Source: an uncultured Desulfocapsa sp.
Lineage (GTDB): Bacteria; Desulfobacterota; Desulfobulbia; Desulfobulbales; Desulfocapsaceae
Reading direction: 5' to 3'
Length of the DNA stretch: 45,500 nucleotides
Assembly: GCA_947311475.1 (NCBI GenBank)
Contig: CAMZLK010000079.1
Location: forward strand, 1 to 45,500
The translations under genes and the position numbers were made by a program. Shown piece by piece: positions 10,591-34,339 of the stretch (its first letter is position 1; every line of letters starts with the position of its first letter). The notes beneath the pieces are model-generated. The model ran no database searches and was not told the origin of the DNA. It was given only the letters and a program-made list of their open reading frames with translations.

Positions 10591-10950
10591 GGGGGCGAAA
10601 CGGATTCGACAGGGATGTGTAAGCTTTACGTTGCATGCCGAGCTTTCTATCTGCTCGTAAAACTGATGGAAACTTAATTATAATCGCCGACGATTATAAC
10701 TACGCACTGGCAGCTTAGACTGCTGTGCCGTTCCCCCGGCCTTCGCCCGTAAGGCTGGATCGGAGCGCCGACTAACGGGCTGGTTCTTCTGCTGCGTCTA
10801 CCGGCAAAAGAATAAGATTTAGTAGAATAGCGTCAGTGTACTCTGGTTCCGGCGGGGCCACTTTCGCGAATCTTAAAGCCCGGAACTAAGCATGTAGATA
10901 CGAGAGGGGAGCATTTTTGGACGCGGGTTCGACTCCCGCCGCCTCCACCA
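10591..10950 (+). ncRNA. ssrA: Transfer-messenger RNA (tmRNA)
   Basis: About 360 nt. The 5' end GGGGGCGAAACGGATTCGAC and 3' end GGGTTCGACTCCCGCCGCCTCCACCA (given here as a known tmRNA end) form the tRNA-like domain: GGGGGCG pairs with CGCCTCC, T-arm present, CCA encoded. The resume codon GCC starts a tag frame at 10,686-10,718 reading ADDYNYALAA then TAG; the ALAA end is the standard proteolysis signal. It rescues stalled ribosomes with SmpB, encoded just upstream. One-piece type. A strong terminator follows at once. Confidence 0.97.
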
Positions 10951-15341: not shown

Positions 15342-15347
15342 AACACC

Positions 15348-17855
15348 CTAAACTTCAATTTCAACTGGAACAGCAACACCAATCTGGTTAGCAACAGGCG
15401 TATAAATATCTATCCCCTGTTCGGGTGTCGTAATCGAAACAATCAAGGCGTATCTGGTCTTCCGGCTCCACCTGCCAAGATGTGCCCGTTCACGCCACCA
15501 GCCAATGGTTGGGTAGATTGCTATCAAATTTGATAATGCCAGATCAGAGGCGTACCCTTTCCAGATGTCTGAGTGGATTGAGCCTTTATCTCGAGCCTGC
15601 CCCAGCACCCAATGATCAGCAGCACTGGCTGTACCCGGATGACCGTTCTCCTTGTCTCTGGCTTTTTTATTGATCCGACGCACTAACTGCTTTTTTTCTT
15701 CTCCAGATGAGTTTAATTCAAAGCGTAATCCGTGTGACGCATAACGATAGCGATCCTGCCAGCCAATCTCACCTGGACCTGGCTCAACAAAATAGGACAG
15801 GGTGATCCTCATCTCAACTTTGGTGTCATCAGGGAGGGATTGCAAAGCCTCTAGTGGCCACGGTAGGTCATATAGATGCATATCCTTGGTGCAATATCCG
15901 CTTCCGGTCTCCTTTTTCGCAAAGGGCTGCAACTCTGACTGGATGATCATGGTTAAACTGTTGCTGGCAGAAAAGCGTGCTTTTTGTAAATCAGGCACCC
16001 CATAGCCACAGATACGGAGCAATCGTTTATAAGATGTCTTACTCTCATCAGACATAAATTGTTGTTTTAGCGTTGTGGGCCATTCTGCCGAATGAACCAT
16101 AAGGGCACGGATTGTTTCTGGCCAATAATCTGGATACTCCGCCTGAATTTGGGCAGCAAACCACGCCGCTTGCGCAGCAGCAGCACTGGTCATATTGAAA
16201 GGGTAAAAATGGGCCTGTTGCGGATCGAAAAAGGTGGATAGAGTCGAAAGGTCATCACATTCCGTGATAAAATTGCTGGAGTCTTTGGCAATATTGCCCC
16301 CCTCCATGACAATTTCAGGTTTGATTGGCCACTTATCCTCCCACGGCAGGGAGGTGGTTGAAAAAGGAGATAACCCACCCGCAGGAGCTATCGCTTCATA
16401 GCCCGTCATGGTTGAGTCTCTAATCTGGTCAAGCTCAGTGAAGGCTCCTACGGTTAAGGCATTCCAGGATTGGGCCGGATCATGAATGGATTCCCCTAAT
16501 TGCGTTTTGGGGTAATCGCTGCACTCGGCTAAACTTCTCGCCTCATTGCAATTCCCGGCACTAACAATAAAAAACTTTTGTTCCTCGTCTTCAGCCCCTG
16601 AACATATTTGATCCAATTCCGCCGACCAGGAAGAAGGCCTACCTTGGTCTCTGGTGTCATCGGCGGTTATAGCCATGCAAGTTATGCGTTTCCTGTTTGG
16701 TGCTTGAATAATGGCTTTTGAAACCGCCTGAGATATAACATAGCCCCATAATTCAGGTTCTGTTGAGCCACTTGGGGGTATAATTTTGATTGACTCGAGG
16801 TAATGTTGCAGGCTTATCACCTCATCATGGCACAGGATTTCCTGAAGATTACCATAGGCTGCAACACCTGCCATCAAGGTTCCATGCTTATCATGGTCAT
16901 GACTGCCCCAGTCTGGATGCACTGTCTGACAATCTTCATCCTGCAGGCAAGGGCTGAGAAGAGGGTGACCGTTATTAACTCCAGTATCAAGAATACAAAC
17001 AGCAACTTCAGCATCTTGAGAGACTTCTAGACGCTCAAGGATATTTTCTACCCACTCCGCCTGTTCCCTATTTTCCTGATCCAACCAAAATGCTGCGGTT
17101 TCCTTGGCCCGACGGTATTCGGCAATATCATCTGATAACCTGGTGATACTTTCCAGTTGATTACGATTGGCATGAATAATTTTAACGGTTCTCTCGGGGA
17201 AACGAACCACGCCAGATTTGTAATTAATCTGCTGTTTATCAAGTAATGCTGTGAAACGCTGAACCACTTCTTCCTGATCAGAACTTAACCAAACCTCACA
17301 CCACTGAGGCTTATCCGTTGGCATCAGATCCTTGGCATCCTGCCAGAACGATTCGACTTCTAAAGCCTTACGAATAGCAGAAATACTTTCAAGTAAGTTA
17401 GCATTTTTGGGTTGACCGGATCTGGCATTATCCTCTGTTGCATAGCGCTCAATTTGCTTGAAAAGCAGTTCTCTCTTTGCACTCGGCACATAAACGGTTG
17501 CAAATATAACCTCAACACTATCTGTTTTATCTGCAACCGACACGATTTCCTTGCGAACATTAAGGAGGCGGGTCCAGCTTTCCTGGTTTGCACCCCGCAA
17601 ATTTTCAAGACTCTTGGTGACCAACTCGTAACCTTGCTCTCCCTTAAATTCGAGATAGACACCATTTCGCTGAGAGCGATACACAACAGCATCATTTTCA
17701 GCATCAGCCCAGGCCTGTTCAAGCTGTTGGTGCAGAAGAATACTATGTCCGGTACGATCTCTGGTAGGGCGAGGTTTACCATTGCCACCACCTGTGCCAG
17801 TAAATGGCTCTTGTTCAAAGTCGGTAATAACAAGGTGCGGTAAATTTGTTGGCAT
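15348..17855 (-). CDS. ietS: Subtilisin-like (S8) serine protease, IetS-like defence protein
   Basis: 835 residues. The catalytic triad of an S8 peptidase is readable: Asp290 in ILDTGVNNGHP, His324 in DKHGTLMAG, Ser557 in NMTSAAAA, with oxyanion Asn435 in VSAGN. There is no signal peptide, so it acts in the cytoplasm. About 280 residues precede the catalytic domain, and about 230 follow. The gene sits 5 bases after an AAA ATPase gene; a cytoplasmic subtilase paired with such an ATPase is the IetAS arrangement, reported as a phage-defence system. Ribosome site GAGGG precedes ATG 17,855. The ATPase may gate or target the protease (inference). The assignment to IetS rests on domain pairing and size, not on a search. 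Confidence 0.8.
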   Translation of the reverse strand: MPTNLPHLVITDFEQEPFTGTGGGNGKPRPTRDRTGHSILLHQQLEQAWADAENDAVVYRSQRNGVYLEFKGEQGYELVTKSLENLRGANQESWTRLLNVRKEIVSVADKTDSVEVIFATVYVPSAKRELLFKQIERYATEDNARSGQPKNANLLESISAIRKALEVESFWQDAKDLMPTDKPQWCEVWLSSDQEEVVQRFTALLDKQQINYKSGVVRFPERTVKIIHANRNQLESITRLSDDIAEYRRAKETAAFWLDQENREQAEWVENILERLEVSQDAEVAVCILDTGVNNGHPLLSPCLQDEDCQTVHPDWGSHDHDKHGTLMAGVAAYGNLQEILCHDEVISLQHYLESIKIIPPSGSTEPELWGYVISQAVSKAIIQAPNRKRITCMAITADDTRDQGRPSSWSAELDQICSGAEDEEQKFFIVSAGNCNEARSLAECSDYPKTQLGESIHDPAQSWNALTVGAFTELDQIRDSTMTGYEAIAPAGGLSPFSTTSLPWEDKWPIKPEIVMEGGNIAKDSSNFITECDDLSTLSTFFDPQQAHFYPFNMTSAAAAQAAWFAAQIQAEYPDYWPETIRALMVHSAEWPTTLKQQFMSDESKTSYKRLLRICGYGVPDLQKARFSASNSLTMIIQSELQPFAKKETGSGYCTKDMHLYDLPWPLEALQSLPDDTKVEMRITLSYFVEPGPGEIGWQDRYRYASHGLRFELNSSGEEKKQLVRRINKKARDKENGHPGTASAADHWVLGQARDKGSIHSDIWKGYASDLALSNLIAIYPTIGWWRERAHLGRWSRKTRYALIVSITTPEQGIDIYTPVANQIGVAVPVEIEV

Positions 17856-17860
17856 TTTGA

Positions 17861-18829
17861 TTACCCTCTGGCCCCTTTATGGGTTTCTTGCCGTTCGTGC
17901 AGGGTAACCAGAAGTTGTTTGGCTGAGATTTTATTGCGGTCAGTAAGGATGGCGTTTTTTATGGCATCCCGGCAGGCGTGGTCTATTTCGGCGTGGCTGA
18001 GACCTTCGCTTATTTTGAGAACCTGTTTCCAGCCGAATCTTGTGGCCATAAAGGTTCCCAGAACATTGGCAATGAGTGCTTTTCGTTCCTCCGTCTCCGG
18101 GTTTTTATAATAGAGTACATCGTCAAAGCGGCGGAACAGAGCACGGTCGAGTAATTTGGGGTTATTCGTTGCGGCTATGATTAAACTATCCGAAGTGTCT
18201 TGCTCGATAAATTGCAGAAAGGCATTGAGCACCCGGCGCATTTCACCCACCTCATTATCCAGTGAGCGGTCACCGCCAATGGCGTCAAACTCATCAAAGA
18301 GGTAGACTCCATGCTCCTGCTGGATCAGATCAAAAATCTGGCGCAGCTTGGCACTGGTCTCACCCATGAATTTAGTCACCAGTCGATCCACCTGGATGGT
18401 ATGGAGTTGCAGGTGAAGTTCCTTGGCCAGTACCATACCACTCATGGTCTTGCCGGTTCCCGGTGGGCCAATAAGCATGATCTTACGGCGATGTTTCAGG
18501 CCGTGGGATTTGAGTTTTTCCTGTTGTCGATACTCATGCACTACCCGCTGTAAACGCTCCCGCACCGCTTGGGTGGTAACCATGGCACTAAGGGGCACCG
18601 ACGGATCTTCTGTTAAGACCAGCCCTTGCAGATTTTTAGGGAATGAAACCAGTTTAGGCCCTTTTTTCTTGCGCTCGGCATCAATAATATCACGGATATC
18701 ATGGGCCAAGCCCTTATGACCCTGACGGGCTTCATGGGCTGCCACTTGGAGGGCAATGGTGAAGAAACGTTCGGAATCTTTACTGAATTTCGAGCGAATT
18801 AATGATTTAAGCTGTTCTGCTGTTGCCAT
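17861..18829 (-). CDS. ietA: AAA ATPase, IetA-like partner of the S8 protease
   Basis: About 322 residues. A single AAA module of the FtsH/spastin type: Walker A GPPGTGKT, Walker B VYLFDEFD, sensor-1 ATNN and an RRFD arginine finger, with a helical N-terminal part. I place the start at ATG 18,829 (MATAEQLKS) because GAGGT lies 8 bases before it at the end of hsdS; an in-frame ATG at 18,853 would overlap hsdS by 20 bases and lacks a ribosome site. It is followed after 5 bases by the subtilase gene, giving the ATPase-protease pair of IetAS systems. Embedded between hsdS and rhuM/hsdR, it shares the restriction promoter. Its job as activator or substrate-loading motor is inferred from the pairing. 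Confidence 0.8.
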   Translation of the reverse strand: MATAEQLKSLIRSKFSKDSERFFTIALQVAAHEARQGHKGLAHDIRDIIDAERKKKGPKLVSFPKNLQGLVLTEDPSVPLSAMVTTQAVRERLQRVVHEYRQQEKLKSHGLKHRRKIMLIGPPGTGKTMSGMVLAKELHLQLHTIQVDRLVTKFMGETSAKLRQIFDLIQQEHGVYLFDEFDAIGGDRSLDNEVGEMRRVLNAFLQFIEQDTSDSLIIAATNNPKLLDRALFRRFDDVLYYKNPETEERKALIANVLGTFMATRFGWKQVLKISEGLSHAEIDHACRDAIKNAILTDRNKISAKQLLVTLHERQETHKGARG

Positions 18830-18833
18830 AGGG

Positions 18834-19976
18834 TTATACCTCAATCTCGCCATTCATCAGGCGGGGCAGGAGAAGGTCGCGGGCCTGGGCTAGTTTTTGG
18901 TTTTGTTGTAATAACACTTCAATTTGTGCATGCATCTGACGTGCTCTACCGTTGAACTCCGCTTTGATTATTTTCTCAGGGTTTAATATAAGACGACTGT
19001 AGGCAAAGTTACGATTGAGCCCAGGAACAGCAACATCGGTATTGATAAAGGTCATATTCTTTAAAGTATAATAGAAGTAGTAATCCGATTCTTCAGGTAA
19101 GATATAATAGACGGTATCAATAGGCCAACAGTCGCAAACTGACCAATAAACACTTCCAACATTTCCTTTTCGGCCAAGAATAATGGCAGAGGCCTTAACA
19201 ATAGCTTTGTCATGTGAACCCACAATACCACTTGACCCATAAACAGGATAGTCTCCATCAACACGGGAATCTTTTTTTAGAGCTTTTCCGTAATTGAGTA
19301 CAGCACATTCTCCAAGAGCTTTTCTTTCCCAACCCTCTGGTACACCATCAATGATTTTGGTGTGTTTATGGCCGGGGAAGCGGAGGTGGATAAACCACTC
19401 CTTATAGAGCAGTCGGGCCGACTCCTCCAGCAACTGTATCCGCCGCCGGTTGTTTTCGATCAGGTCGTCGTAGGCATCTATTATTGAGGCTATAGTTTCT
19501 TGAGTATTTACACCTGGAATTCGGACTTTAACTTTATAGATTCTTTCTGGGGCTGTATGACGGACTTTAGTCCCTGTCGCACTTCCTGATATTTGTCCTC
19601 TAACATTATATGTATTGAAAAGATGATAAAGGTATTTGGGAGCCAAAATATTTTTATCTATTTCGTCAATTTTACCAAGTCGTTGATTGTGGAGATATTT
19701 ATCGGACTCAGGAATCCATGCTGAACTGCCAAGTAAACCAGCCCCTTGTTCGGTCATTGCTACAATTAGATCATTTTTTTTCAGCAAAAATGTGTCCGGG
19801 AAATCTCCTGTGTAAAAGCGCTCTTTTGCTGGCCTAACTCTGAACCCACCTTTCTCGTGAAAGTTACCTGGGGTCAAAAGCATCAACACCCCACTGCTTG
19901 AAAAATATTGGCTTTTAAACGCAAAGCCATGCTTAATATGGATTGCATCGCCAAGAAAAATTTCTCGCCAACTCAT
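18834..19976 (-). CDS. hsdS: Type I restriction-modification specificity subunit
   Basis: 380 residues, the usual length. Two target-recognition domains, each followed by a conserved helix: the first helix is at about 165-195 (DAYDDLIENNRRRIQLLEES), the second at the C-terminus (QNQKLAQARDLLLPRLMNGE). It selects the bipartite DNA site for methylation and restriction. Its start overlaps the upstream AlbA_2-type gene by 4 bases and its stop is followed by the ATPase start. Nothing suggests truncation, and no second hsdS fragment or inversion repeat was seen, so no phase-variable shuffling is apparent. Confidence 0.95.
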   Translation of the reverse strand: MSWREIFLGDAIHIKHGFAFKSQYFSSSGVLMLLTPGNFHEKGGFRVRPAKERFYTGDFPDTFLLKKNDLIVAMTEQGAGLLGSSAWIPESDKYLHNQRLGKIDEIDKNILAPKYLYHLFNTYNVRGQISGSATGTKVRHTAPERIYKVKVRIPGVNTQETIASIIDAYDDLIENNRRRIQLLEESARLLYKEWFIHLRFPGHKHTKIIDGVPEGWERKALGECAVLNYGKALKKDSRVDGDYPVYGSSGIVGSHDKAIVKASAIILGRKGNVGSVYWSVCDCWPIDTVYYILPEESDYYFYYTLKNMTFINTDVAVPGLNRNFAYSRLILNPEKIIKAEFNGRARQMHAQIEVLLQQNQKLAQARDLLLPRLMNGEIEV

Positions 19977-21448
19977 ACCCCACCCTCCAGCACTCTCTCA
20001 ACTTCCCTCTCCCCCAACGCCGTCAAGCGATACCGCTGTTTACTACTCCGTGGTTTATCCGGGATAGTCATTTCAATGAGTTGCAGGGCAATGGCTGGTT
20101 GTTGATAATGCTCACGGAAATGCTTTTCATCGACCAGTTCCAGTTTCTGTTGAATCTCTTTGCGGCTCATTTCCCCATGCAGCAATACCAGCATTCTGTG
20201 GACTTCGGGGGTGACTTCGGGGGTCACTTCGGGGGTGACTTCGGGGGCGACTTCCCCGGTAACATCTTCGCTGGCCTCGGCTAAGGGAATGATCAGCTCA
20301 AAGCCGTGCATGGTATCCTTAAAGATTGGTTTGGAGCCATGGGCGTAGAGGGGCAGGTATTTATTGATATTGCGGACGCCGGAGCCAAGTTCATCGAAAC
20401 GGCCCAGTTGGATCATAAACTTGCAGATGGTGGGGTTCTTGGAAAAGGGGCGCAGGTTTTCCAGGGTGATTTCACTGAAATGATGCTGGGTTCCGGGGTT
20501 ATCAAAGATCACCCTGTCTTGGTAGATCATTAATCGGGCCGGGGAACCGCTGCTATACTCCCGGTGGGAGACGATATTTGACACCGCCTCCCGGAAAATC
20601 TTGTCCCGCAGGCTGATTCGTTGGGTTCCCTCCAGATAAAAGGGGTCGTTGAGATGTTTCTCCACAAAGCCCATCATCTGGTCATAGGCATCAATGAGGT
20701 TGGTTCGGATCATCAGACGATCGTCATAGCGTTCTTCATTGTCCCGGCGCAGTAAACAGTCAATTTTATAGGCGGGTACGGCCTGGGCAATGGCAACATC
20801 ATGACCGAATATCAGGATTCCTGCCAGGGAAAGAACTGTTTTGCCGGTGTCAGGATCAGTGGTGTAAAATCCGCCAATATGCAATAACTCTTCGTCGGAT
20901 AGATCGGCCCATGGGTGCTGAGAGTTGTAGGAGCGCATCAGCCGTCTGGCCCGGTCAAAGAGTTCGGGTCGCAGGTCTGCCATGGAGCTGAAACGAATGG
21001 GGCGTTGTTCGCTGAAGATCCCCAGCTTGCGGTTGAGCAGTCCGGCCAGTTGGTGAGTTCCCTGCACTCTATAGTCACCATCCTCACTGCGCAGGAAGAT
21101 TTCGCCCTTATGTTTATGGAGTTGGGAGCTGAGTGGAACCTGAATAACAATAATGGTTTTACCGTCAATCTCGGTTGCATAGGGAAAGAGCAGGTAGGGC
21201 AGATCAATTTTCTGGGGGTTATTGGAGAGATTGGCAATATCCACCTTCATGCGGCTAATGGCGTTTTGATCCACCCCAATGATCTCACCCCTGTCTGAAA
21301 CGCCGAGAAAGATCAGGCCGCCATCGGTGTTAAGAAAGGCGCAAACCGTATCAAAGAGATTGGCTGGCAGCGTATCCACCGCCTCTTTAAATTCGGTATG
21401 CAGTCCTTCCCCTTCGGCAATAACCTCAAGCAGGTGGGCGGTATTCAT
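19973..21448 (-). CDS. AlbA_2 / RecG-like ATP-binding protein in the RM operon
   Basis: 491 residues. The N-terminal AlbA_2 (Schlafen AlbA-like) domain shows EGLHTEFKE near residue 15 and FLNTDGGLIFLGVSDRGEI near 40-58. The middle part contains RISLRDKIFREAVSNIVSHREY and ELGSGVRNINKY, the HATPase_c_4-like block of the COG2865 group. A linker of PEVT repeats at about 395-413 is encoded by a 12-bp tandem repeat, then a winged helix ends in IPDKPRSSKQRYRLT. Probably a DNA-binding ATP-dependent regulator; such genes commonly sit between hsdM and hsdS, but their role there is not settled. Overlaps hsdM and hsdS by 4 bases each. A frameshifted relative lies at 25,915-27,380. Confidence 0.88.
   Translation of the reverse strand: MNTAHLLEVIAEGEGLHTEFKEAVDTLPANLFDTVCAFLNTDGGLIFLGVSDRGEIIGVDQNAISRMKVDIANLSNNPQKIDLPYLLFPYATEIDGKTIIVIQVPLSSQLHKHKGEIFLRSEDGDYRVQGTHQLAGLLNRKLGIFSEQRPIRFSSMADLRPELFDRARRLMRSYNSQHPWADLSDEELLHIGGFYTTDPDTGKTVLSLAGILIFGHDVAIAQAVPAYKIDCLLRRDNEERYDDRLMIRTNLIDAYDQMMGFVEKHLNDPFYLEGTQRISLRDKIFREAVSNIVSHREYSSGSPARLMIYQDRVIFDNPGTQHHFSEITLENLRPFSKNPTICKFMIQLGRFDELGSGVRNINKYLPLYAHGSKPIFKDTMHGFELIIPLAEASEDVTGEVAPEVTPEVTPEVTPEVHRMLVLLHGEMSRKEIQQKLELVDEKHFREHYQQPAIALQLIEMTIPDKPRSSKQRYRLTALGEREVERVLEGGV
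20202..20261. repeat. 12-bp tandem repeat coding for PEVT linker
   Basis: Four consecutive 12-base units acttcgggggtg/c (20,202-20,249), the fourth with one change, followed by a diverged fifth. On the minus strand they encode repeated P-E-V-T/A. Units are a multiple of three, so copy number can change without breaking the frame. Confidence 0.9.
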
Positions 21449-23559
21449 AGCGCTAATCCTGCAAAATTCCGGGCAATCTTTGCTGCCAACTCCACCGCTT
21501 CGCCATTAAGTTCGGCCAGCTCCGCATGGATATCGGTCAGGGTCGCCTCAAAATCAAAATCTTCATCCACCTCTTCCGGTGCCACTCCCACATAACGGCC
21601 AGGGGTCAGGCTCCAGTCATTGGCGGCAAGTTCCTCCTGGTCAACCAGCTTGACCAGCCCCTCCACATCACAGAGTTTGCCCTCCGGAAAGCGGCAGAGA
21701 AGCCAGTGGGCCTGATGATAAAAATAACGAACCTGCTTGAGCTGTGTCACCAGCTCTTTCCGAGCGGCTTCGGCCTGTTTTGTAAGATTGTTCCTGCGAC
21801 TACCATTGATCTCTGTAGTCCAGAGCGGGCTCTTTTTGGCGTGAAGCTCCTTTTCGCAGAGTTCAAGCAGACGGTTGATTAATTTAAAGGCATGGTCAAC
21901 CAGTTTGATCAGGTCACGGGCCTGTTCCGCCAGCCCTGCCAGTCCCTGCTTGTTTTCTATAAAGGCACTTAGTTGTGAGATGGTCGGGTTTGCCATATCC
22001 TGCCATTGCGTAAGATTATCCTGGGTTGATGTCTTGAACGCTATGCTGGATTCCTGCAACTGGGCAAGGGTGGTGAGTAATTCGCCATAGCTCTCGGCCT
22101 GCACGCCATCTGAGGGGATACTTTTTAAAAAGGGGGTGACGGCAGTATGAATGGTCTCAAGGCGGGTCTGGTATTGTTGGAGAAGCTCAGCTTGCTGCGC
22201 TTCAGTCAGGCTTTTGCTGGTGTAGTTTGCCAGTAAATCGGTAAAACGCTCGGTCTGACCACGGTAGAGCCAGACAATGGCGGTGATATTTTCGAGTTGT
22301 TCCGGGGTGAAGTCAAAGATCTTGCGGGTTACCTTGCGGTAGATATTGCGGGCATCAATCATCAACACCTTATCCCGATGTTCCGCAGGTTTGTCCTTAT
22401 TTAAAAACCAAAGCTGGCAGGGTACGGAGCGGGTGTAGAAGAAATTACCACGAATATCGATCATGGCATCCACATGGCCAGTCTGAATCAGGGCCGCCCG
22501 CATCTTGGCCTCATCCCGCCCGGCACTGGAGGCCTGGGATGACATGACAAAACCGGCTCGGCCAGTGTCATTGAGGTAGCTATAGAAATAGGAAATCCAG
22601 AGATAATTGCCATTGGAGACCTTGCCCTTCTTGTTGACCCCCGGCAGACCAAAGGGCAGTCGTCGCCCCATATCGCTCTTGATCTTATCCGCATCCACCT
22701 CATCAACATTAAAGGGGGGATTGGCCATGACATAATCTGCCGTGCCCCAGAGACCGTCATGGGGATCTTCGTAATAGGAAATGGCCTTTTGGATATTACC
22801 CTCCAGACCATGCACAGCCAGGTTCATCTTGGCCAGGCGGATGGTGGTGGGGTTTTTCTCCATGCCATAGAAGGTGAGGAGTTCGCCGGGATTTTGCTGT
22901 ATACGCTCGACAAAATGGGCGGACTGGACAAACATACCGCCCGAACCACAGGCAGGATCAAGCACCTTGCCATGATCTGGCTCAATGACATTGGCAATGA
23001 GCTGTACCAGAGAGACCGGGGTAAAAAACTCACCGCCGTCATGGGCCTTGAGATCGGCAAAGCCGGTGAGAAAATATTCGTAGATACGACCGAAAATATC
23101 ACCAGTGGCCTTTTTAAGCACCTCTGGATTTAAAGTACGCAGTAACTGGCCTAACACCTCATTATCCAGTTCCCTATATTCTGCCTTGGGTAACTGGTCT
23201 TTGAGGTTGCTGTAATCTTTTTCGATGGATTCCATGGCCTGAATAAGGGCTTCAGCCCGGTCATCAGCATCTGTCAGGGCAACCAGAGAATCAAACTGGG
23301 CAGCTTGGCTAAGAAAAATAGCACCTTTCTGGGAGAAGTCCTCCTTGGTTAAGGCCCGGGTGCGCCCACCACGGGATGGCAGGGTGGCAACCACCTCATC
23401 TTTCACCTTTAAGAAACGGCTGTAGGCATGACGCAGGAAGATCAGCCCCATGACCGGCATAAAGTATTCATTACTGGCGTAATTGGAGTTGGCCCGCAGG
23501 GTGTCTGCTGCCTGCCAGAGCCGTTTTTCAATTGCTTCTATATTGGCTAGTTGTGCCAT
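21445..23559 (-). CDS. hsdM: Type I restriction-modification DNA adenine methyltransferase subunit
   Basis: 704 residues, longer than the common 500-residue HsdM because of a C-terminal helical extension of about 200 residues. HsdM_N helices occupy the first 150 residues; GEFFTP is at 176-181, SAM motif I DPACGSGG at 201-208, and catalytic motif IV NPPF at 280-283. It methylates adenine at the site chosen by HsdS and protects host DNA. It starts 4 bases after the small HTH gene and overlaps the AlbA_2-type gene by 4. All motifs are intact, so the modification arm should be active. Confidence 0.96.
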   Translation of the reverse strand: MAQLANIEAIEKRLWQAADTLRANSNYASNEYFMPVMGLIFLRHAYSRFLKVKDEVVATLPSRGGRTRALTKEDFSQKGAIFLSQAAQFDSLVALTDADDRAEALIQAMESIEKDYSNLKDQLPKAEYRELDNEVLGQLLRTLNPEVLKKATGDIFGRIYEYFLTGFADLKAHDGGEFFTPVSLVQLIANVIEPDHGKVLDPACGSGGMFVQSAHFVERIQQNPGELLTFYGMEKNPTTIRLAKMNLAVHGLEGNIQKAISYYEDPHDGLWGTADYVMANPPFNVDEVDADKIKSDMGRRLPFGLPGVNKKGKVSNGNYLWISYFYSYLNDTGRAGFVMSSQASSAGRDEAKMRAALIQTGHVDAMIDIRGNFFYTRSVPCQLWFLNKDKPAEHRDKVLMIDARNIYRKVTRKIFDFTPEQLENITAIVWLYRGQTERFTDLLANYTSKSLTEAQQAELLQQYQTRLETIHTAVTPFLKSIPSDGVQAESYGELLTTLAQLQESSIAFKTSTQDNLTQWQDMANPTISQLSAFIENKQGLAGLAEQARDLIKLVDHAFKLINRLLELCEKELHAKKSPLWTTEINGSRRNNLTKQAEAARKELVTQLKQVRYFYHQAHWLLCRFPEGKLCDVEGLVKLVDQEELAANDWSLTPGRYVGVAPEEVDEDFDFEATLTDIHAELAELNGEAVELAAKIARNFAGLAL

Positions 23560-23563
23560 GCTG

Positions 23564-24149: not shown

Positions 24150-24638
24150 TTGCCAGAGCTGGATCGATTAATCCTTGCTACTGTAGCGACTGAACAGGTT
24201 GCAACACACCACCGGATAATGGAAATCTCCGATGATAACGCCCATGATTTAACACAGGCTTTCCGGCGTCTTGTCAAGGCAGGCTGGCTAAAATCAAGCG
24301 GGCATGGACATGGTACTGTTTATCACCGTCCTGAACAAGCGCTCCCAACACCAGAGCAGGTCTTTGGAGAAGCATTGCCAATTATTGATGAAAGCTCTGA
24401 ACATTTGGAAGAGAGCTCCGCACATTTAAGGGATAGCTCCGCACATTCTAATCGAGCAGAAGAAGGTTGGTTGATAGTAAGTGGAATTGCTAATCCGTTA
24501 ATTGATGATTTACAACTTCTCACCTCGGAAGTTAAACAAGAACTAGCAGCCAAGGCAAACGAAGTACAATCGAGAAAAAAATCCCGAAAATTGAAATGGA
24601 GAGAATTGTTCTTTCGTTGTGCGAAAGCTATTACTTAA
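24150..24638 (+). pseudogene. C-terminal remnant of an AlbA_2/RecG-like protein
   Basis: The readable frame (YDNLPELDRLILATVATEQ, then HDLTQAFRRLVKAGWLKSSG) matches the winged-helix C-terminal region found in COG2865-type ATP-binding proteins, not the N-terminus of a gene. The frame is open without a good start from 24,051 and the first usable codon is TTG 24,150 inside the conserved block, so the N-terminal AlbA_2 and ATPase parts are missing. Downstream there is a low-complexity stretch with repeated SSEHL/SSAHL/SSAHS. It belongs to a different subfamily from the two other AlbA_2 genes here. It could still be expressed as a small DNA-binding protein; a truncated remnant is more likely. Confidence 0.6.
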
Positions 24639-24780
24639 TATTGCAAGTCTTAGCACAGTCAGTCAAATCACCAAAAATTACGCATCAATTATCTACACTT
24701 GCTCTCCACTCGTGAGCGGAAAGAAAATACCCCATGGAACAATACACGGTGGGTGGAGTGGCTAGAAATAAAAAAGAACC

Positions 24781-25842
24781 ATGAAAAAGACTAAAAGTCA
24801 AAACAAGCAGAAGTCCCAGAGGGATGAACTGTCCATTGTCCGCTCATCGGCTGCTGAATATCTGAGCTTTGTTGCAGCAAGTGGCAAGGGAGGTGTTGAA
24901 GCTGTTTATGCCGATGAAAACATCTGGCTATCTCAGAAAATGATGGCCACGCTCTATGACGTTGATGTCAGAACGGTAAATTACCACCTGAAAAAGATAT
25001 TCAACGATAGTGAGTTACAGGAAGATTCAGTTATCCGAAATTTTCGGATAACTGCCGCAGACGGAAAAAACTACAATACCAAACATTATAATCTTTCGGC
25101 CATTATTGCTGTTGGCTATAAGGTCAATTCTGAACGGGCTGTGCAGTTCCGTAAGTGGGCGACCAGTATTATTGAAGAGTTCACCATCAAGGGTTACACC
25201 ATGGATGATGAGCGTCTGAAGAATGATGGCTCTATCCTTGGCAAAAAATATTTTGAAGAGCAGTTACAGCGTATTCGGGAGATTCGCCTCTCTGAGCGTA
25301 AATTCTACCAGAAAATCACAGATATTTATGCCACATCAATTGATTATGATGTGACAGCGCAGGCAACCAAACGCTTTTTCGCAGCGGTTCAAAACAAATT
25401 GCATTGGGCTATCCATGGTCAGACAGCGGCGGAAGTTATTGTGGATCGAGCAGATCATCAAAAAGATAATATGGGGTTGACTACCTGGGAAGACGCACCA
25501 AAAGGAAAGATTCAAAAGTTTGATGTCAGTGTTGCCAAAAATTATTTGACGAAGAATGAAATGGCACAATTGCAACGAATGGTTTCAGCCTACCTGGATG
25601 TTGCCGAAAGCATGGCATTAAGGAATATCCCAATGACCATGCAGGATTGGGAAACACGCTTAAATCGTTTCATCGAAGCTACCGACCGTAAGATTTTGCA
25701 GGATGCTGGAAAGGTAACAGCCGAAATTGCCAAGGCTCATGCTGAAAGTGAATTTGAGAAATACCGAATTGTTCAGGATCAGCTCTTTGTCTCTGATTTC
25801 GATAAAATGCTGGAGAACTTGAAAAATAAGGATGACTGCTGA
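24781..25842 (+). CDS. RhuM family protein (copy 2)
   Basis: 353 residues, about 25 more at the N-terminus than copy 1 at 14,355-15,341. The shared blocks are easy to align: ENIWLSQKMMATLYDVDVRT in the winged-helix part, AADGKNYNTKHYNLSAIIAV, IREIRLSERKFYQKITDIYA, and FDVSVAKNYLTKNEM. Function unknown beyond the family association with restriction and defence loci. Here it stands before a (frameshifted) AlbA_2-type gene and a primase-helicase rather than inside a restriction operon. ATG 24,781 has no strong ribosome site; it directly follows a 140-base spacer that shows nothing else. Confidence 0.85.
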   Translation: MKKTKSQNKQKSQRDELSIVRSSAAEYLSFVAASGKGGVEAVYADENIWLSQKMMATLYDVDVRTVNYHLKKIFNDSELQEDSVIRNFRITAADGKNYNTKHYNLSAIIAVGYKVNSERAVQFRKWATSIIEEFTIKGYTMDDERLKNDGSILGKKYFEEQLQRIREIRLSERKFYQKITDIYATSIDYDVTAQATKRFFAAVQNKLHWAIHGQTAAEVIVDRADHQKDNMGLTTWEDAPKGKIQKFDVSVAKNYLTKNEMAQLQRMVSAYLDVAESMALRNIPMTMQDWETRLNRFIEATDRKILQDAGKVTAEIAKAHAESEFEKYRIVQDQLFVSDFDKMLENLKNKDDC

Positions 25843-25914
25843 CTATTTAAAGAACAACAAAGTAAAAAACCTACTTACTACGATGCGAGCACAGGATCAT
25901 CCAAAATCAATAAA

Positions 25915-27380
25915 ATGAAGATAAACGAACAAAAAATCGCAGAGCTTATCTCTCAGGGTGAAGGAGTATCCCTGGAATTTAAGACCTGCCGCAATCAGAT
26001 CAATCGTGATGTCTATGAGACGGTCTGCGCTTTTCTTAATCGGCATGGCGGTACTCTCCTGCTGGGAGTGAACGATTCAGGAAAGATTACGGGCATTGAT
26101 CCTGAGACAGTGGCACAAATCAAAAAGGATTTTGTTACCGCAATTAATAACCCGCAAAAACTGACTCCGGCAGCCTATCTGTCTGTGGAAGAGATTGAGG
26201 CAGGCCCAAAAAAGATATTGAAGATTTATGTCCCGGAAAGCTCACAGGTACACCGCTGTAATGGCCGTATTTACGACCGTAACGAAGACGGTGGTTTTGA
26301 TGTCACAGATCATACTGTCCAAGTTGCCAACCTCTACCAACGTAAACAGGCAACTTACAGTGAAAGCAAGATATATCCGTGGATTAATATGATCATCTGA
26401 GACCGGAATTAATCGAGAAATGCCGGAGACATGTTCGAATTAATGCAGACAATCATCCCTGGGCTGCCATGGACGATCTGCAACTTCTCAAGAGCGCACA
26501 ACTTTATCAAACCGATCCACTCACCAAAGAAAGCGGAATCACACTGGCTGGTGTAATGTTATTTGCACCGGATTCGCTTATTCTTCAGGTCTGTCCTGCC
26601 CATCGTACAGACTTAATCCTGCGTAAGGTAAACGTAGATCGCTACGACGACCGTGATCTGGTTCGCACCAACCTGATCGACAGCTATGACCGCATTCTCG
26701 CCTTTATAAAAAAACATCTGCCGGATCCTTTCTACCTGGAGGGCATTGAGCGAAGAAGTCTCCGGGATGCCATTTTCCGTGAAGTTGCTTCCAACATGCT
26801 TATCCACCGGGAGTATGCCAACGGTGTCCCGGCCAGACTTGTGATCGAATACGGTACAGTTACCGCCTATAACGCCAACCGTCCGCACGGATTCGGCATA
26901 CTTAACCCGAAAACCTTCGCTCCTTATCCCAAAAATCCTGTTATCGGCGCTTTTTTTCGTGAAATCAACCGGGCCGATGAGCTGGGCTCCGGTATGCGAA
27001 AAATGATGCTGTATGGAAAACAATATGGTGGCGCAGATCCGCAACTGATTGAAGAGGATGTGTTTCGTATGATTGTGAAGGTACCGGAATTTAGTCAAAA
27101 TCCAGCAACCAGTTCCGAATCCCCACAAGTCACCCCACAAGTGACCCCACAAGTCCTCGCTGTATTGCATGAAGCCGACAAGGCTCAAACGGCAAACAAA
27201 CTACAACAAGCAGTCGGATTGAAGGATAGAGTCCATTTCCTTAAAGCCTACCTGGAACCCTTATTGGCTGCAGAATTAATAGAACGAACAATTCCCGACA
27301 AACCTCGCAGCAGTAAACAGAAATACCGACTAACGCCAAAAGGAAAAGAAATATTGGAAAGCAACAGGGGTGACAGGTAA
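25915..27380 (+). pseudogene. AlbA_2/RecG-like ATP-binding gene split by a frameshift
   Basis: Two frames together give one full-length protein of about 488 residues. 25,915-26,400 encodes the AlbA_2 domain (EGVSLEFKTCRNQ, FLNRHGGTLLLGVNDSGKI) and stops at TGA 26,398. The rest continues in the -1 frame (DHLRPELIEKCRRHVRINAD) well before the ATG at 26,469, with RRSLRDAIFREVASNMLIHREY, ELGSGMRK, a PQVT repeat linker and a winged helix ending in IPDKPRSSKQKYRLT. The switch must fall in the dozen bases between TAA at about 26,384 and the TGA. I see no slippery heptamer, so mutation or a sequencing error is likelier than programmed frameshifting. It resembles the 491-residue gene in the restriction operon along its whole length. 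Confidence 0.82.
27123..27158. repeat. 12-bp tandem repeat coding for PQVT linker
   Basis: Three consecutive 12-base units beginning ccacaagt (27,123, 27,135, 27,147) encode P-Q-V-T P-Q-V-T P-Q-V. They occupy the same linker position as the PEVT units of the paralogue at 20,202-20,261 but with a different codon set, so the two arrays expanded separately. Confidence 0.85.
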
Positions 27381-27402
27381 ATAGTGTTAGCGTAGCCTGC
27401 AA

Positions 27403-29829
27403 ATGACAACAATTGATCTTTTAACAAAGCAACTTGAGAAATCCAAAGCTGAATGTACCCGTCTGCAAAAAGAAAATGAACTACTGAAACAAAAATTTGC
27501 TACTTATGGTGAAAGGCCAAAAATCCGTCAAACAATAGAAAAAAGCGAAAAACCAAATCAGCACCTTTCTACATCGATCTCCATTCATTCTCCTGTAGAA
27601 AACAAAATAGAACTTTTTCGGAATCTTTTTCGCGGGAGAGACGATGTCTATCCCGTTCTCTGGCATGCCAAGGACGGGCGTAAAGGCTATTCTCCTGCCT
27701 GTAAAAATGAATGGAACAAAGTTTACTGTAATAAGAAGAAAGTAAAATGTGGGCAGTGTAAAAATCGAAGCCTTATTCCTGTCTCAGACCAGACAATCTT
27801 TAATCATTTAGCAGGCAAGCATACTATTGGTGTCTATCCTTTACTTGAAGACGAAACATGCTGGTTTCTGGCAGTTGACTTCGATAAAAAAGAATGGCAA
27901 TCCGATATAGCTGCTTTTCATGAAACATGTCGAGCCTATCAGATCCCGGCTGTTATAGAACGGTCTCGTTCAGGAAATGGAGGCCACGTTTGGATTTTCT
28001 TTAAAGATCGTGTACCAGCGGCTCTTGCCAGAAAACTTGGATTTGCTCTTTTGACATTAACCATGGATAAAAGGCACCAGATCGGGCTCAAGTCTTATGA
28101 TCGTTTCTTTCCCAATCAGGATACCATGCCCAAAGGCGGGTTCGGCAACCTGATTGCGCTGCCGCTTCAGAAATTCCCACGAGAAAAGGGAAACAGTGTT
28201 TTTCTTGATGAACAATTACATCCATATGATGATCAGTGGGCATATCTTTCAAATATTGAAAAAATATCTCCAAAGGACCTGGCAGAAAAGGTAAAAGAGA
28301 CCAACAAGGCATCTCAAACGATACAAGTCAGGGATAATGGTTCTGACAAAGAAACAACCGACACTCCCTGGACTCTCCCGCCATCAGGAGCCACCAAAGA
28401 TAATTCTATTACAGACCCGCTCCCCGACACCATACATATAGTTCAAGCCAATATGTTGTATATCCCCAAAAAAGGTTTGCCTCCTGCCCTGCATAATCGT
28501 TTGTTCCGTATTGCTGCTTTTCCCAACCCGGAGTTTTATAAAGCCCAGGCCATGCATCTCTCAACATACGGGAAACCACCAATCATTAGTTGCACAGATG
28601 AACATCCCCAGCACATTGCGCTTCCCAGGGGATGTCTTGATGATGTCCGGCAACTACTGGGCGAGTTGGATGTGTCACTGGAAATCGAGGACAAACGATC
28701 CCGTGGAAAACCCATAAAAGCATCATTCACTGGCAAACTACGGAAAACTCAACGAACAGCGGTAAAGAGTATCCGTTCACATGATATCGGAATTCTCAGT
28801 GCTGCCACTGCTTTTGGGAAAACTGTTGTTGCAGCAAAACTCATTGCAGTTCGTAAACGAAATACGCTCATCCTGGTACACAGACGCCAGTTGCTTGATC
28901 AGTGGCATGAAAAACTCGCCATGTTTTTATCCATCCCACAAGAGCAAATAGGAATAATTGGCGGAGGGAAAAGAAATCCGACGAACATTGTTGATATAGG
29001 TATAATGCAAAGCCTGCATCGTAATAAGATCGTTGATAATATCGTTGCAGAGTATGGCCATATCATAATTGATGAGTGCCACCATCTGGCACCTTTTACT
29101 TTTGAACAACTCATGAAAAAAGTACAAGCCCGCTATGTTCTTGGCCTGACAGCAACTCTCACTCGCAAAGATGGGCATCATCCAATAGTCATGATGCAAA
29201 CCGGTCCCGTTTTATTCCAGGTAGGGGCAGATGAGGCTGCTTTTGCCAGATCTTTTGATCATTTTGTATATCCACAACCAACAAGCACAAAAGCACCTGC
29301 AAATGTTGAAACGCCAAGTATTCAAGAAATTTACAAACTATTAGTGGAAGATGATAAACGAAACACACAGATTGCAAACGATGTGATCCAAGCTGTTCGT
29401 GACGGGAGATCTCCGTTACTCCTTACTGAACGGACAGCACATCTTCAACGGATGTTCAACATCTTGGAAAACCAAATAAAAAACATCATCATCCTGAAAG
29501 GCGGTATGGGACAAAAACAGCGCAAGGAAACAATGGCACAACTCGTTGCAATTCCCCCGGATGAAGAACGAGTAATCATCGCCACAGGCCGATATATCGG
29601 TGAAGGCTTTGATGACTCACGGCTTGACACACTTTTTTTGACAATGCCAATTTCCTGGAAAGGGACTTTACAACAATATGCTGGTCGACTGCACAGAGAG
29701 TATGATTCCAAAAAAGAGGTGCTCATCTACGACTATGTTGATGAAAATATCCCCATGCTTCAGAGGATGTACAAAAAGAGGTTAACAGGATATAAAGCTA
29801 TCGGATATGAAGTAATAGAGCAACACTAA
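27403..29829 (+). CDS. TOTE-type primase-helicase (AEP primase domain fused to SF2 helicase)
   Basis: 808 residues. Order: N-terminal coiled coil (about 5-32), a four-Cys zinc site (C100, C109, C116, C119), an archaeo-eukaryotic primase-like domain with VDFD at 158-161 and SGNGGHVW with His195, followed by YDRFFPNQD near 232-240, then a superfamily 2 helicase with Walker A AFGKT near 472, DECH near 559 and GLTATLTR, and a C-terminal helicase half with GEGFDDSRLD. This layout matches the TOTE conflict-system primase-helicase, a family proposed from genome analysis to act in defence against invading DNA. It follows the AlbA_2-type gene by 22 bases, so the two were probably co-transcribed. No partner nuclease is adjacent unless the HsdR locus serves that role. 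ATG 27,403 lacks a clear ribosome site. Confidence 0.85.
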   Translation: MTTIDLLTKQLEKSKAECTRLQKENELLKQKFATYGERPKIRQTIEKSEKPNQHLSTSISIHSPVENKIELFRNLFRGRDDVYPVLWHAKDGRKGYSPACKNEWNKVYCNKKKVKCGQCKNRSLIPVSDQTIFNHLAGKHTIGVYPLLEDETCWFLAVDFDKKEWQSDIAAFHETCRAYQIPAVIERSRSGNGGHVWIFFKDRVPAALARKLGFALLTLTMDKRHQIGLKSYDRFFPNQDTMPKGGFGNLIALPLQKFPREKGNSVFLDEQLHPYDDQWAYLSNIEKISPKDLAEKVKETNKASQTIQVRDNGSDKETTDTPWTLPPSGATKDNSITDPLPDTIHIVQANMLYIPKKGLPPALHNRLFRIAAFPNPEFYKAQAMHLSTYGKPPIISCTDEHPQHIALPRGCLDDVRQLLGELDVSLEIEDKRSRGKPIKASFTGKLRKTQRTAVKSIRSHDIGILSAATAFGKTVVAAKLIAVRKRNTLILVHRRQLLDQWHEKLAMFLSIPQEQIGIIGGGKRNPTNIVDIGIMQSLHRNKIVDNIVAEYGHIIIDECHHLAPFTFEQLMKKVQARYVLGLTATLTRKDGHHPIVMMQTGPVLFQVGADEAAFARSFDHFVYPQPTSTKAPANVETPSIQEIYKLLVEDDKRNTQIANDVIQAVRDGRSPLLLTERTAHLQRMFNILENQIKNIIILKGGMGQKQRKETMAQLVAIPPDEERVIIATGRYIGEGFDDSRLDTLFLTMPISWKGTLQQYAGRLHREYDSKKEVLIYDYVDENIPMLQRMYKKRLTGYKAIGYEVIEQH

Positions 29830-29833
29830 TGAA

Positions 29834-29862
29834 TTGACTTCAGGTGATGGTAATACTAGCAT
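29834..29862 (+). promoter_or_regulatory. Candidate promoter of the CopG/ParE locus
   Basis: TTGACT (29,834-29,839) and TAGCAT (29,857-29,862) are separated by 17 bases, starting 5 bases after the helicase stop. The antitoxin ATG is 34 bases further on. Confidence 0.45.
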
Positions 29863-29895
29863 ATACCCATCAATATCTTCTTCTGAGGAGTTCAT

Positions 29896-30177
29896 ATGAC
29901 CACCACAGCCGTTGCCATCAAAATAGACCTGGAAACAAAAGAGCGATATAAAAAAACTTGCACAAAAAAAGATCGTGCAACCCACTGGATGATGCGTGAA
30001 GTCATTAGTCAATATTTGGACAGAGAAGAAAAACGTGTATCTTTTCATCAGGATGCGGTGAACTCCTGGAACGAATACCAGGAAATTGGACTCCATGCAA
30101 CAGGTGACGAAGTAATACAATGGCTTAATACCTGGGGAACCGATGATGAACAGGACGCACCCGAATGCCATCAGTAA
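29896..30177 (+). CDS. CopG/ribbon-helix-helix antitoxin (ParD-like)
   Basis: 93 residues. The N-terminal strand and helices (TTAVAIKIDLETKERYKK then MMREVISQYLDREE) form a ribbon-helix-helix DNA-binding domain; the C-terminal half would wrap the toxin. A GAGGAG ribosome site (29,885-29,890) precedes ATG 29,896 and a candidate promoter lies upstream. The cognate ParE-like toxin frame starts at 30,165, overlapping this gene by 13 bases, but is destroyed. The antitoxin reads intact and is therefore an orphan here. Confidence 0.8.
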   Translation: MTTTAVAIKIDLETKERYKKTCTKKDRATHWMMREVISQYLDREEKRVSFHQDAVNSWNEYQEIGLHATGDEVIQWLNTWGTDDEQDAPECHQ

Positions 30178-31642: not shown

Positions 31643-34339
31643 ATGTACTCAAAGATGCCAAACACGCCCCTCGTCCGGACATTGCAGGCTGTCCTGCTGC
31701 CAGACAGTTCACTTCAACTTGAGGCTGACACCTGGAGCAGCAAACAGAGCAAAAGCAGTACACTGTTGCAACAGGAAATCTTCTCTGTTTATAAAAAAGA
31801 TCGTGGCAACTGGCTCCTCTTTCTCGGTTTTTCCGATGCGGAAGTAGCACTCCCTGCTTCACTCGATTTCTGGCGGCGCTTCAGTGCTCTCTTTGTTCAT
31901 AATCTTCGGCTGACTCCCAATCTGGAGCAACTCCGCCACCAAGTGAAGATTCCCCTCCCCGAACACGAGGTCGCCCAACTGCTGGAAACACTTCCGGCAA
32001 TGATTGGGGGGGAATATATTAACTCCCACCTTCTTTCGACATTCTGGTCTGATCTAAACACGTCTTTTGCCTCATCCATCAAACAGTTTTCCGGCTCTGT
32101 TGCCGAGTTTATCCATCATTATTCCCCCAACGCTCACCTGCTGGGCCGGATCTATTTCCACCTTGTTGAAAACAAAGATGATGATGCACCCTTTGCCTTT
32201 CTGGCTACTTACTCGACCAGGACGTCCGGCAAAGGACAATCAAAACATCTGCCCCTTAAATATGCGCTACAGGAATACCAGGATGACAATAATAAGCTGC
32301 TGGAATTATTGACCACTGTTTATGAGGCGGCAAAAGAAAGCACACTGATTACCGAACTGCTGGAAAGCAACGATCTCTTTTCTCCCCTGGCCTGGACCAG
32401 CCATGATGCGCACACTTTTTTACAGGAAGTTCCACTCTATGAGGAGGCTGGTATTCTCTGCCGCATTCCCGATTGGTGGAAGGTCAAAGGCACAAGCCTT
32501 ACACTGAAAATCAGCCTTGGCGAACAAAGACCAACCATGGTGGGCATGGCTGCCTTACTGGATTTCTCCCCGCGACTGATGCTGGGAGAAGATGAACTTG
32601 GGGTAGATGAAGTAATGCGTCTGCTTGATGAAGTTGAGGGCCTGGCCTTTATCAAAAACAAATGGGTGGCTGTTGATAGGGAGAAACTGGAACAGACTCT
32701 TGCCGCCTATAAAGATGCACAGAATCTTGCAGAACAGGAAGGATTAACCCTGGCAGAAGCCATGCGTCTGCAACTGCAATCCGGTACCAAACTCCTGGAA
32801 ACAGCCGACGCGGATGTACTGGAAGTTGAAAATGGTGAATGGCTGCAATCAGTTTTTCACAAGATGACACACCCCGGCCAACTTCCGAAAATACGCACCG
32901 ACAATCGTTTTAAGGCAAAGCTGAGGCCCTACCAGCAGGATGGGCTGCGTTGGCTTTGCGAACTTGACGGGCTTGGTTTTGGAGCTTGTCTGGCCGATGA
33001 CATGGGCCTTGGTAAGACTGTGCAGATTCTGGCCTTTTTAAATATCCTGACGGGTAATAATAAAGCCACAAATAAGCCTGCGGCTTCACTGCTCATTATT
33101 CCAGCCTCTTTACTTACCAACTGGGAACAGGAAATAGAAAAATTCTTTCCAGATCTGCAAGTATTCTTTGCCCATCCATCCATGCATAAACCTCACAGGG
33201 TAAAGGCACCAACAAACAAAAATCTGGATCACCTGGATCTGGTTATCACCACTTATGCCTTGGCCCAGCGCTATGACTGGCTATCTGAACATAACTGGAA
33301 CTATGTAATTCTTGATGAAGCCCAGGCGATCAAGAACCCGGGTACCAAGCAGACAAGAGCTGTAAAAAAGATTCCAGCTGCCAACCGTATCGCCATGACC
33401 GGCACCCCCGTGGAGAATCGGCTGAGCGATCTCTGGTCATTATTTGATTTTGTTAACCCGGGTCTACTGGGTACGAGCAAAGAGTTTGCCGCCTTCAGTA
33501 AAGGACTCGCCGATCATCCGGGCGGCTATGGCCGTCTGCGCAAAATGACTGCGCCTTTTATTCTTCGTCGCTTAAAAACTGATCGCTCTGTTATCAGTGA
33601 CCTGCCCGACAAAGTGGAAGTGAAGAGCTGGGCAGATCTCAGCAGGAAACAGACAGTTATCTACCAGCAGCTTGTAGATAATATGGCTGAGATGCTGGAG
33701 TCAGCTGATGGTATTCAACGTAAAGGTATGATTCTGGCGGCACTGACCAAATTCAAGCAAATATGTAATCACCCGGACCAATATGCCGGAGTGGATGGCT
33801 ATAATGAAAAAGAGAGTGGCAAATTTGCAAGACTGCGTGAAATAAGCACAACCATCCATGAAAAGCGGGAACAGATGCTGATTTTTACCCAGTTCAAGGA
33901 AATGACAGAACCACTGGCACGTTTCCTCGAAACAATTTTTGGCCGCCCCGGACTCATTCTTCATGGCAGTGTGGCTGTGGGTAAACGCAAAAAAATCATC
34001 GAACAGTTTCAGTCAGATGAGTATATTCCTTTTATGGTACTGTCGCTTAAGGCCGGTGGAGTGGGACTGAATCTAACCAGTGCCAATCATGTCGTTCATT
34101 TTGACCGCTGGTGGAATCCTGCCGTTGAAAATCAAGCCACCGACCGTGTTTTTCGCATTGGTCAGAAAAAAAAGGTAATGGTACATAAATTCATTACCAA
34201 GGGTACCATAGAAGAAAAAATTGATGAAATGTTAGAGCAAAAGGCGAAACTTTCCGCTGATGTGCTGGCTGCCAGTGGCGAGAGTTGGCTGACAGAAATG
34301 AAAAATGACGAGTTGTCCGATCTGTTCAGATTGCAGTAA
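31643..34339 (+). CDS. SNF2 family DNA helicase/translocase
   Basis: 898 residues. The N-terminal half includes a bacterial SNF2-associated (DUF3670-like) region with LLDFSPRLMLGEDELGVDEV near 312-331. The motor has motif I DDMGLGKT near 452-459, DEAQ near 557-560, TGTPVENRLSDLWSLFDF, and in the second RecA half GGVGLNLTSANHVVHFDRWW and DRVFRIGQ. It is an ATP-driven double-strand DNA translocase. In many genomes this type lies directly beside a SWIM zinc-finger gene; here that partner is at 38,516, with a 4-kb block between. The C-terminus ends DELSDLFRLQ, and LSDLF recurs in the SWIM protein. A near copy of the last coding bases occurs at 38,288-38,314. Confidence 0.92.
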   Translation: MYSKMPNTPLVRTLQAVLLPDSSLQLEADTWSSKQSKSSTLLQQEIFSVYKKDRGNWLLFLGFSDAEVALPASLDFWRRFSALFVHNLRLTPNLEQLRHQVKIPLPEHEVAQLLETLPAMIGGEYINSHLLSTFWSDLNTSFASSIKQFSGSVAEFIHHYSPNAHLLGRIYFHLVENKDDDAPFAFLATYSTRTSGKGQSKHLPLKYALQEYQDDNNKLLELLTTVYEAAKESTLITELLESNDLFSPLAWTSHDAHTFLQEVPLYEEAGILCRIPDWWKVKGTSLTLKISLGEQRPTMVGMAALLDFSPRLMLGEDELGVDEVMRLLDEVEGLAFIKNKWVAVDREKLEQTLAAYKDAQNLAEQEGLTLAEAMRLQLQSGTKLLETADADVLEVENGEWLQSVFHKMTHPGQLPKIRTDNRFKAKLRPYQQDGLRWLCELDGLGFGACLADDMGLGKTVQILAFLNILTGNNKATNKPAASLLIIPASLLTNWEQEIEKFFPDLQVFFAHPSMHKPHRVKAPTNKNLDHLDLVITTYALAQRYDWLSEHNWNYVILDEAQAIKNPGTKQTRAVKKIPAANRIAMTGTPVENRLSDLWSLFDFVNPGLLGTSKEFAAFSKGLADHPGGYGRLRKMTAPFILRRLKTDRSVISDLPDKVEVKSWADLSRKQTVIYQQLVDNMAEMLESADGIQRKGMILAALTKFKQICNHPDQYAGVDGYNEKESGKFARLREISTTIHEKREQMLIFTQFKEMTEPLARFLETIFGRPGLILHGSVAVGKRKKIIEQFQSDEYIPFMVLSLKAGGVGLNLTSANHVVHFDRWWNPAVENQATDRVFRIGQKKKVMVHKFITKGTIEEKIDEMLEQKAKLSADVLAASGESWLTEMKNDELSDLFRLQ
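34302..34328. repeat. 27-bp direct repeat, left copy (SNF2 3' end)
   Basis: Matches 38,288-38,314 at 26 of 27 positions, same orientation; shared core gagttgtccgatctgttca. It lies in the last codons of the SNF2 gene. The two copies bracket the block of toxin-antitoxin-type genes. Confidence 0.85.

Follow-up and report, generated by a model that had tools for sequence, protein, structure and literature searches.

Several described systems share parts with the genes studied here. The TOTE conflict system is defined by TPR, OB, TBP and Effector components (PMC12458937). CAPP enzymes are demonstrated primase-polymerases (PMC8211822), and proteins that join a Schlafen domain to a minimal histidine kinase and a winged helix-turn-helix (wHTH) have been described as back-up effectors for BREX (PMC12839542). 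A primase-helicase pair is known from SCCmec (PMC7581432). We compared with these a set of three genes, rhuM, a Schlafen/AlbA_2 gene and a gene for an AEP-XPB primase-helicase, that lies in the first 45,500 nucleotides (the window) of contig CAMZLK010000079.1 from an uncultured Desulfocapsa sp. We conclude, with a probability of roughly three in four, that the set belongs to a mosaic defence island bounded by a tmRNA gene and an SNF2 helicase gene, and is not one dedicated three-protein machine.

An earlier note, made from the sequence alone, had described the order rhuM, AlbA_2, primase-helicase with a gap of 22 bases, and this was confirmed by open reading frames (ORFs) and Pfam (Table 1). 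The end of rhuM is separated from AlbA_2 by 72 bases, and the AlbA_2 stop from the primase-helicase start by 22 bases. The Pfam matches of all three genes were well above chance level; those of the primase-helicase were AEP-TOTE (PF22548, E 1.6e-104) together with ResIII, DEAD and Helicase_C, and the second half of AlbA_2 matched Fic-like_C (PF21247, E 4e-21) and, weakly, HATPase_c_4 (PF13749). The remark that no effector nuclease is obvious was also borne out, as no nuclease domain was found in or beside the primase-helicase.

The neighbourhoods of related primase-helicases were compared in 96 loci, a largely non-redundant sample. Besides the window, all three genes occurred together in 1/96 loci, L127, which comes from another family of the order and reads on one strand AlbA_2 - hsdS - AlbA_2 - rhuM - DUF6155-like gene - primase-helicase, inside a Type I restriction operon. 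Its primase-helicase is 48% and its rhuM 67% identical to those of the window, and it is an independent recurrence of all three gene kinds. RhuM also adjoins primase-helicase fragments in L131, L201, L205 and G485:C21. The view reached at 64 loci, that rhuM is never an adjacent neighbour, was overturned by L127, L131 and others in the wider sample. The recurrence of the neighbourhood proposed as a check by the earlier note was seen in part: there is one full repeat and RhuM occurs above chance, but the unit recurs weakly and a fixed system is not supported. A fixed three-gene set as a general rule was rejected over the 96 loci.

The Schlafen gene of the window lineage adjoins the primase-helicase solely in L033. 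The DNA block shared by L033 and the window is exactly 25906-29823 (92% identical), and holds AlbA_2 and the primase-helicase without rhuM. L034 has only the primase-helicase in common with the window, with homology beginning one base before its ATG. L191 corresponds to the chromosomal site of the window: it has tmRNA, rhuM, a deleted AlbA_2 and SNF2, and lacks both the Type I operon and the primase-helicase. These loci, together with the differing usual homes of the genes, show that the three genes move separately.

As to those homes, the window rhuM belongs to a close family (79-85% identity) that is common in Type I restriction operons, and hsd genes adjoin rhuM in about half of 22 close-orthologue loci. 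The rhuM of the set lies beside the hsd operon of the window, and a second copy lies inside that operon. AlbA_2 is found next to restriction cores as well: orthologues (62-73% identical) stand between BrxC and PglX in BREX-like loci of Desulfobacterota (L211, L214, L215 and L217), and a paralogue is located within the window hsd operon. The earlier note was silent on the rhuM and AlbA_2 that the neighbouring Type I restriction operon has of its own.

The AlbA_2 frame of the window is broken at 26385-26400, whereas L033, a 94%-identical relative, has one intact frame of 488 amino acids (aa). The minimal histidine kinase and wHTH part is in a single frame with the Schlafen domain in L033 and in a separate frame in the window. 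E16, E21 and D54, which we take to be catalytic positions from general knowledge of Schlafen RNases, are invariant in 12 relatives and are also present in the first half of the window gene. The AlbA_2 of L191 carries an internal deletion, its middle being lost from the same point (L191:9527) as the window frameshift; the window and L191 lose the frame at the same spot, with the RNase-type half severed from the ATPase half. The frameshift in the window may be a sequencing error of the metagenome-assembled genome.

The primase-helicase consists of a coiled coil (residues 2-34), a primase-polymerase (prim-pol) domain (65-303), an XPB/UvsW-like pre-helicase region (341-435) and a superfamily 2 (SF2) helicase (440-808). 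The coiled coil, the prim-pol domain and the XPB-like part were visible in an AlphaFold model (mean pLDDT 82), and the modelled prim-pol domain matched CAPP (PDB 7nqd) with Z 25.5 and a root-mean-square deviation of 2.0 A over 196 residues at 29% identity. Structure match and sequence profile both showed that residues 341-808 resemble archaeal/eukaryotic XPB and T4 UvsW. The conserved prim-pol positions D159/D161, S190, H195 and D240 are intact in the window protein, as are the helicase positions GKT 472-474, DECH 557-560 and motif VI Q758-R765, where the motif names are presumed from general knowledge of the families. In two clades of relatives, a nuclease (PLD or DUF559) is fused to the C-terminus. 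A separate XPB-like helicase of ~470 aa, about 30-36% identical to residues 358-793 of the primase-helicase, is present in nearly every sampled genome of the order (L002, L024-L032) and is a probable core gene.

Within the window's own phylum, to which the genome statistics refer (other phyla are represented mainly by plasmids), the distribution of the full-length primase-helicase is patchy, with 48/395 genomes of the phylum and 41/258 of the order. The order-level search returned the same genomes as the class-level search, and a contig scan with the single protein as query gave 8 loci only. The gene is present on 98 plasmid records, 43 of them conjugative, and plasmid records annotate it merely as 'DEAD/DEAH box helicase'. 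Among 50,697 phage records, none covers 80% of the protein.

The upstream partners of the gene change. On a fast tree with long branches, which has to be read with caution, partner presence switches at least 19 times and the partners differ; even in the window's own clade of nine, the partner is AlbA_2, AbiE, HigBA, DUF4143 or none. Same-strand upstream partners exceed downstream ones (32 vs 10 exclusive cases, p 0.0009), and the toxin-type genes Fic, AbiEi-AbiEii, HigB-HigA and VapC recur upstream on chromosomes and plasmids. HigBA, AbiE or VapBC lie immediately upstream on the same strand in L045/L046, L109, L043, L070, L110, L139, L049 and L066. A DUF6155-like gene of ~183 aa, whose Pfam match is under the family's own cut-off, directly precedes the primase-helicase, overlapping or abutting its start, in nine loci (L126, L120, L081, L078, L053, L054, L127, L137 and L226) that span Desulfobacterota, Azotobacter and Massilia; the copies in L224, L225 and L227 are without it.

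Taken together, the best explanation as a whole, to which we give somewhat better than even odds, is a mosaic island with an orphan, horizontally moving, stand-alone primase-helicase. The island would then combine a rhuM whose lineage is characteristic of Type I restriction operons, a Schlafen/AlbA_2-ATPase-wHTH gene from a lineage of back-up RNase effectors in BREX and restriction operons, frameshifted here, and a stand-alone AEP-XPB primase-helicase that is horizontally mobile and often comes last, after an unrelated gene of toxin or restriction type. More tentatively, and at odds a little short of even, we propose that the primase-helicase is a defence enzyme working alone. The XPB-like helicase would open duplex DNA that is foreign or damaged, and on the strand exposed in this way the CAPP-like prim-pol would prime or extend DNA, which might interfere with or mark the invader. 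Gene content, intact motifs, folds, patchy distribution and the swapping of partners are established here, whereas the processing of DNA by the primase-helicase and any effect in defence are inferred. RhuM and the Schlafen protein would keep their own restriction and back-up roles, having only the island and the direction of transcription in common with the primase-helicase.

Some points weigh against this explanation. The papers searched contained no functional data on this family of primase-helicases. The gene, moreover, is frequent on plasmids and transposons too, and there a part in replication or repair would fit equally well. RhuM was observed within 3 kb of the primase-helicase 4 times in the order set, against 0.05 expected, and in view of this excess and of the recurrence in L127, selection may favour some coupling. 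In two genomes, AlbA_2 and the primase-helicase keep the 22-base gap between them. Similar counts within 3 kb were 12 observed vs 0.4 expected from background density for Fic and, weakly, 2 vs 0.3 for AlbA_2, both of one lineage; because general defence-gene clustering was not removed from these tests, the enrichments show island co-residence and not cooperation.

The idea of the earlier note that RhuM, the Schlafen protein and the primase-helicase form a dedicated defence system, already weakened, appears very improbable. The genes are on the same strand with short gaps, they recur once in a distant genome, and RhuM stands beside the four primase-helicase fragments mentioned above, but the single repeat among the 96 loci falls in a Type I restriction operon that also holds hsdS and a DUF6155-like gene, and each gene has other usual partners. 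In favour of the suggestion that RhuM and AlbA_2 act as effector or regulator is the architecture of AlbA_2, which is the one proposed for Schlafen-RNase back-up effectors (PMC12839542); against a fixed set are the swapping of partners and the separability of the genes. The window protein is a compact form, lacking the C-terminal nuclease that is fused in two related clades, and it may be a 'compact variant with swapped effector', but a fixed three-gene system is unsupported. A TOTE conflict system proper, with TPR, OB, TBP and effector, is hardly credible. Although Pfam assigns the prim-pol domain to AEP-TOTE, TBP (PF00352) was matched in 0/63 carrier genomes, own genome included, with four archaeal controls positive (a very divergent TBP could escape), and a Pfam scan of the neighbouring ORFs, covering 24150-31460 only, found no TPR-cold-shock/OB gene. 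Because the 63 carrier genomes have no detectable TBP gene, the primase-helicase is not a strict TOTE system; TOTE membership as first proposed fails in that sense, and what is left of it is the AEP-TOTE domain itself.

It is rather unlikely that the primase-helicase has no defence role and is a helper that aids the replication, repair or establishment of plasmids, transposons and islands. Besides its frequency on plasmids, conjugative ones included, there is the precedent of the SCCmec primase-helicase pair (PMC7581432), and plasmid copies of the gene overlap TniQ in a Tni operon (L141), follow TniQ (L104), lie between a resolvase and a Tn3 transposase (L108) or adjoin three-recombinase cassettes (L103, L106). 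Chromosomal copies, on the other hand, are often found in restriction or toxin neighbourhoods, no phage record reaches the 80% coverage given above, and the loci read showed no tie to a replication origin or relaxase. The most interesting alternative to the mosaic island is that the primase-helicase is a compact core with its effector in trans, in which nuclease-less forms would use the upstream toxin-type gene (Fic, AbiEii, HigB, VapC or a Schlafen RNase). We regard this as unlikely, and equally so its detailed form, in which the helicase and prim-pol would sense invading DNA and release the toxin, the effector of the window being the Schlafen gene, now broken. The recurrence of toxin-type genes upstream and the excess of upstream over downstream partners agree with it, and a close same-strand upstream gene was found in 40/63 short forms vs 4/19 nuclease-fused forms (Fisher p 0.0015), a contrast that is suggestive only because the long forms fall in two clades with just three changes on the tree. 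As proof this contrast was dropped, being Fisher-significant but not phylogenetically independent. Furthermore, toxin-type partners alone give Fisher p 0.22, many short forms are partnerless, and where partners occur they are often accompanied by antitoxins of their own and may be ordinary toxin-antitoxin (TA) modules. Still more doubtful is the wider proposal that the AEP-XPB primase-helicase serves as a chassis for defence whose effectors can be exchanged, with a cis nuclease (PLD/DUF559) in two clades and an upstream trans toxin in the short forms. If it were true, the branch that uses Schlafen as the effector of the primase-helicase would comprise the window, L033 and L127.

With the mosaic island as the preferred explanation, a one-off guess about three genes is replaced by a testable pattern: a widespread primase-helicase that recurs in last place behind TA, Fic, Schlafen or restriction genes, with a repeated small DUF6155-like partner and with a fused nuclease in two clades. 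It may serve as an enzyme of defence, carry effectors or help mobile DNA.

The features of the island and its edges are listed in Table 1. The remnant upstream of rhuM had no Pfam match. Downstream of the primase-helicase, sequence reading gave the antitoxin-like ORF followed by a broken toxin-like frame, together 29896-30330. IetA-IetS (window 15348-18853) sit between hsdS and rhuM/hsdR in the Type I operon, and the gene order in L200 is ietA-ietS-hsdR-rhuM.

Table 1. Features of the gene set and of the surrounding island, in window coordinates.
Feature	Position	Strand	Basis
rhuM, 353 aa, intact	24781..25842	+	PF13310 E 1.5e-109
Schlafen/AlbA_2 gene, first half, RNase-type domain; frame lost downstream	25915..26400	+	PF04326 SLFN_AlbA_2, E 5e-20
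Schlafen/AlbA_2 gene, second half, other frame: GHKL-ATPase-like part and Fic-like_C winged helix	26469..27380	+	PF13749, PF21247; alignment with L033
AEP-XPB primase-helicase, 808 aa, intact, no nuclease	27403..29829	+	PF22548, PF04851
tmRNA gene, one island edge	10591..10950	+	ARAGORN; syntenic in L191
Type I restriction operon, divergent, complete: hsdM, AlbA_2 paralogue, hsdS, ietA, ietS, second rhuM, hsdR	11149..23559	-	PADLOC; paralogue comparisons
Second rhuM inside hsd operon	14355-15341	-	55% identical to rhuM of the set
AlbA_2 paralogue inside hsd operon	19973-21448	-	about 40% identical to AlbA_2 of the set
Remnant, C-terminal part of a third AlbA_2 ('RNA-binding domain-containing') protein	24150..24638	+	tblastn 34-43% over first 55-79 residues
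Small ORF, probable ribbon-helix-helix antitoxin	29896..30177	+	sequence reading; weak match to N-terminus of PutA-type regulator model
SNF2-type helicase gene, other island edge	31643..34339	+	81% DNA identity to L191 and L040

Compared with the described systems, the window protein has the full-length domain of the AEP-TOTE family (PF22548) and the same order of prim-pol and SF2 helicase, but it is without TBP, TPR or OB genes and without a fused nuclease, and it stands alone or with changing partners. Its prim-pol fold and motifs match those of CAPP, from which it differs in being fused to a helicase; a PADLOC scan of ten proteins (11149-29829) gave no Cas1/Cas2. Over residues 341-808, its helicase core and the region preceding it (341-435) align with XPB/RAD25 and T4 UvsW; unlike these, the window helicase is joined to a prim-pol and encoded in defence or mobile settings. 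Read across its two frames, the window AlbA_2 has the same architecture as the BREX-type Schlafen back-up effectors (PMC12839542), and its orthologues lie between BrxC and PglX; unlike them, it is frameshifted and stands beside a Type I system and a primase-helicase. Finally, Type I operons with RhuM, AlbA_2, Fic and IetAS accessories have the same accessory genes as the window, and three of them (L127, L076 and L053) have the primase-helicase as the last gene. Unlike the accessory genes within those operons, the set in the window runs divergent from the hsd operon.

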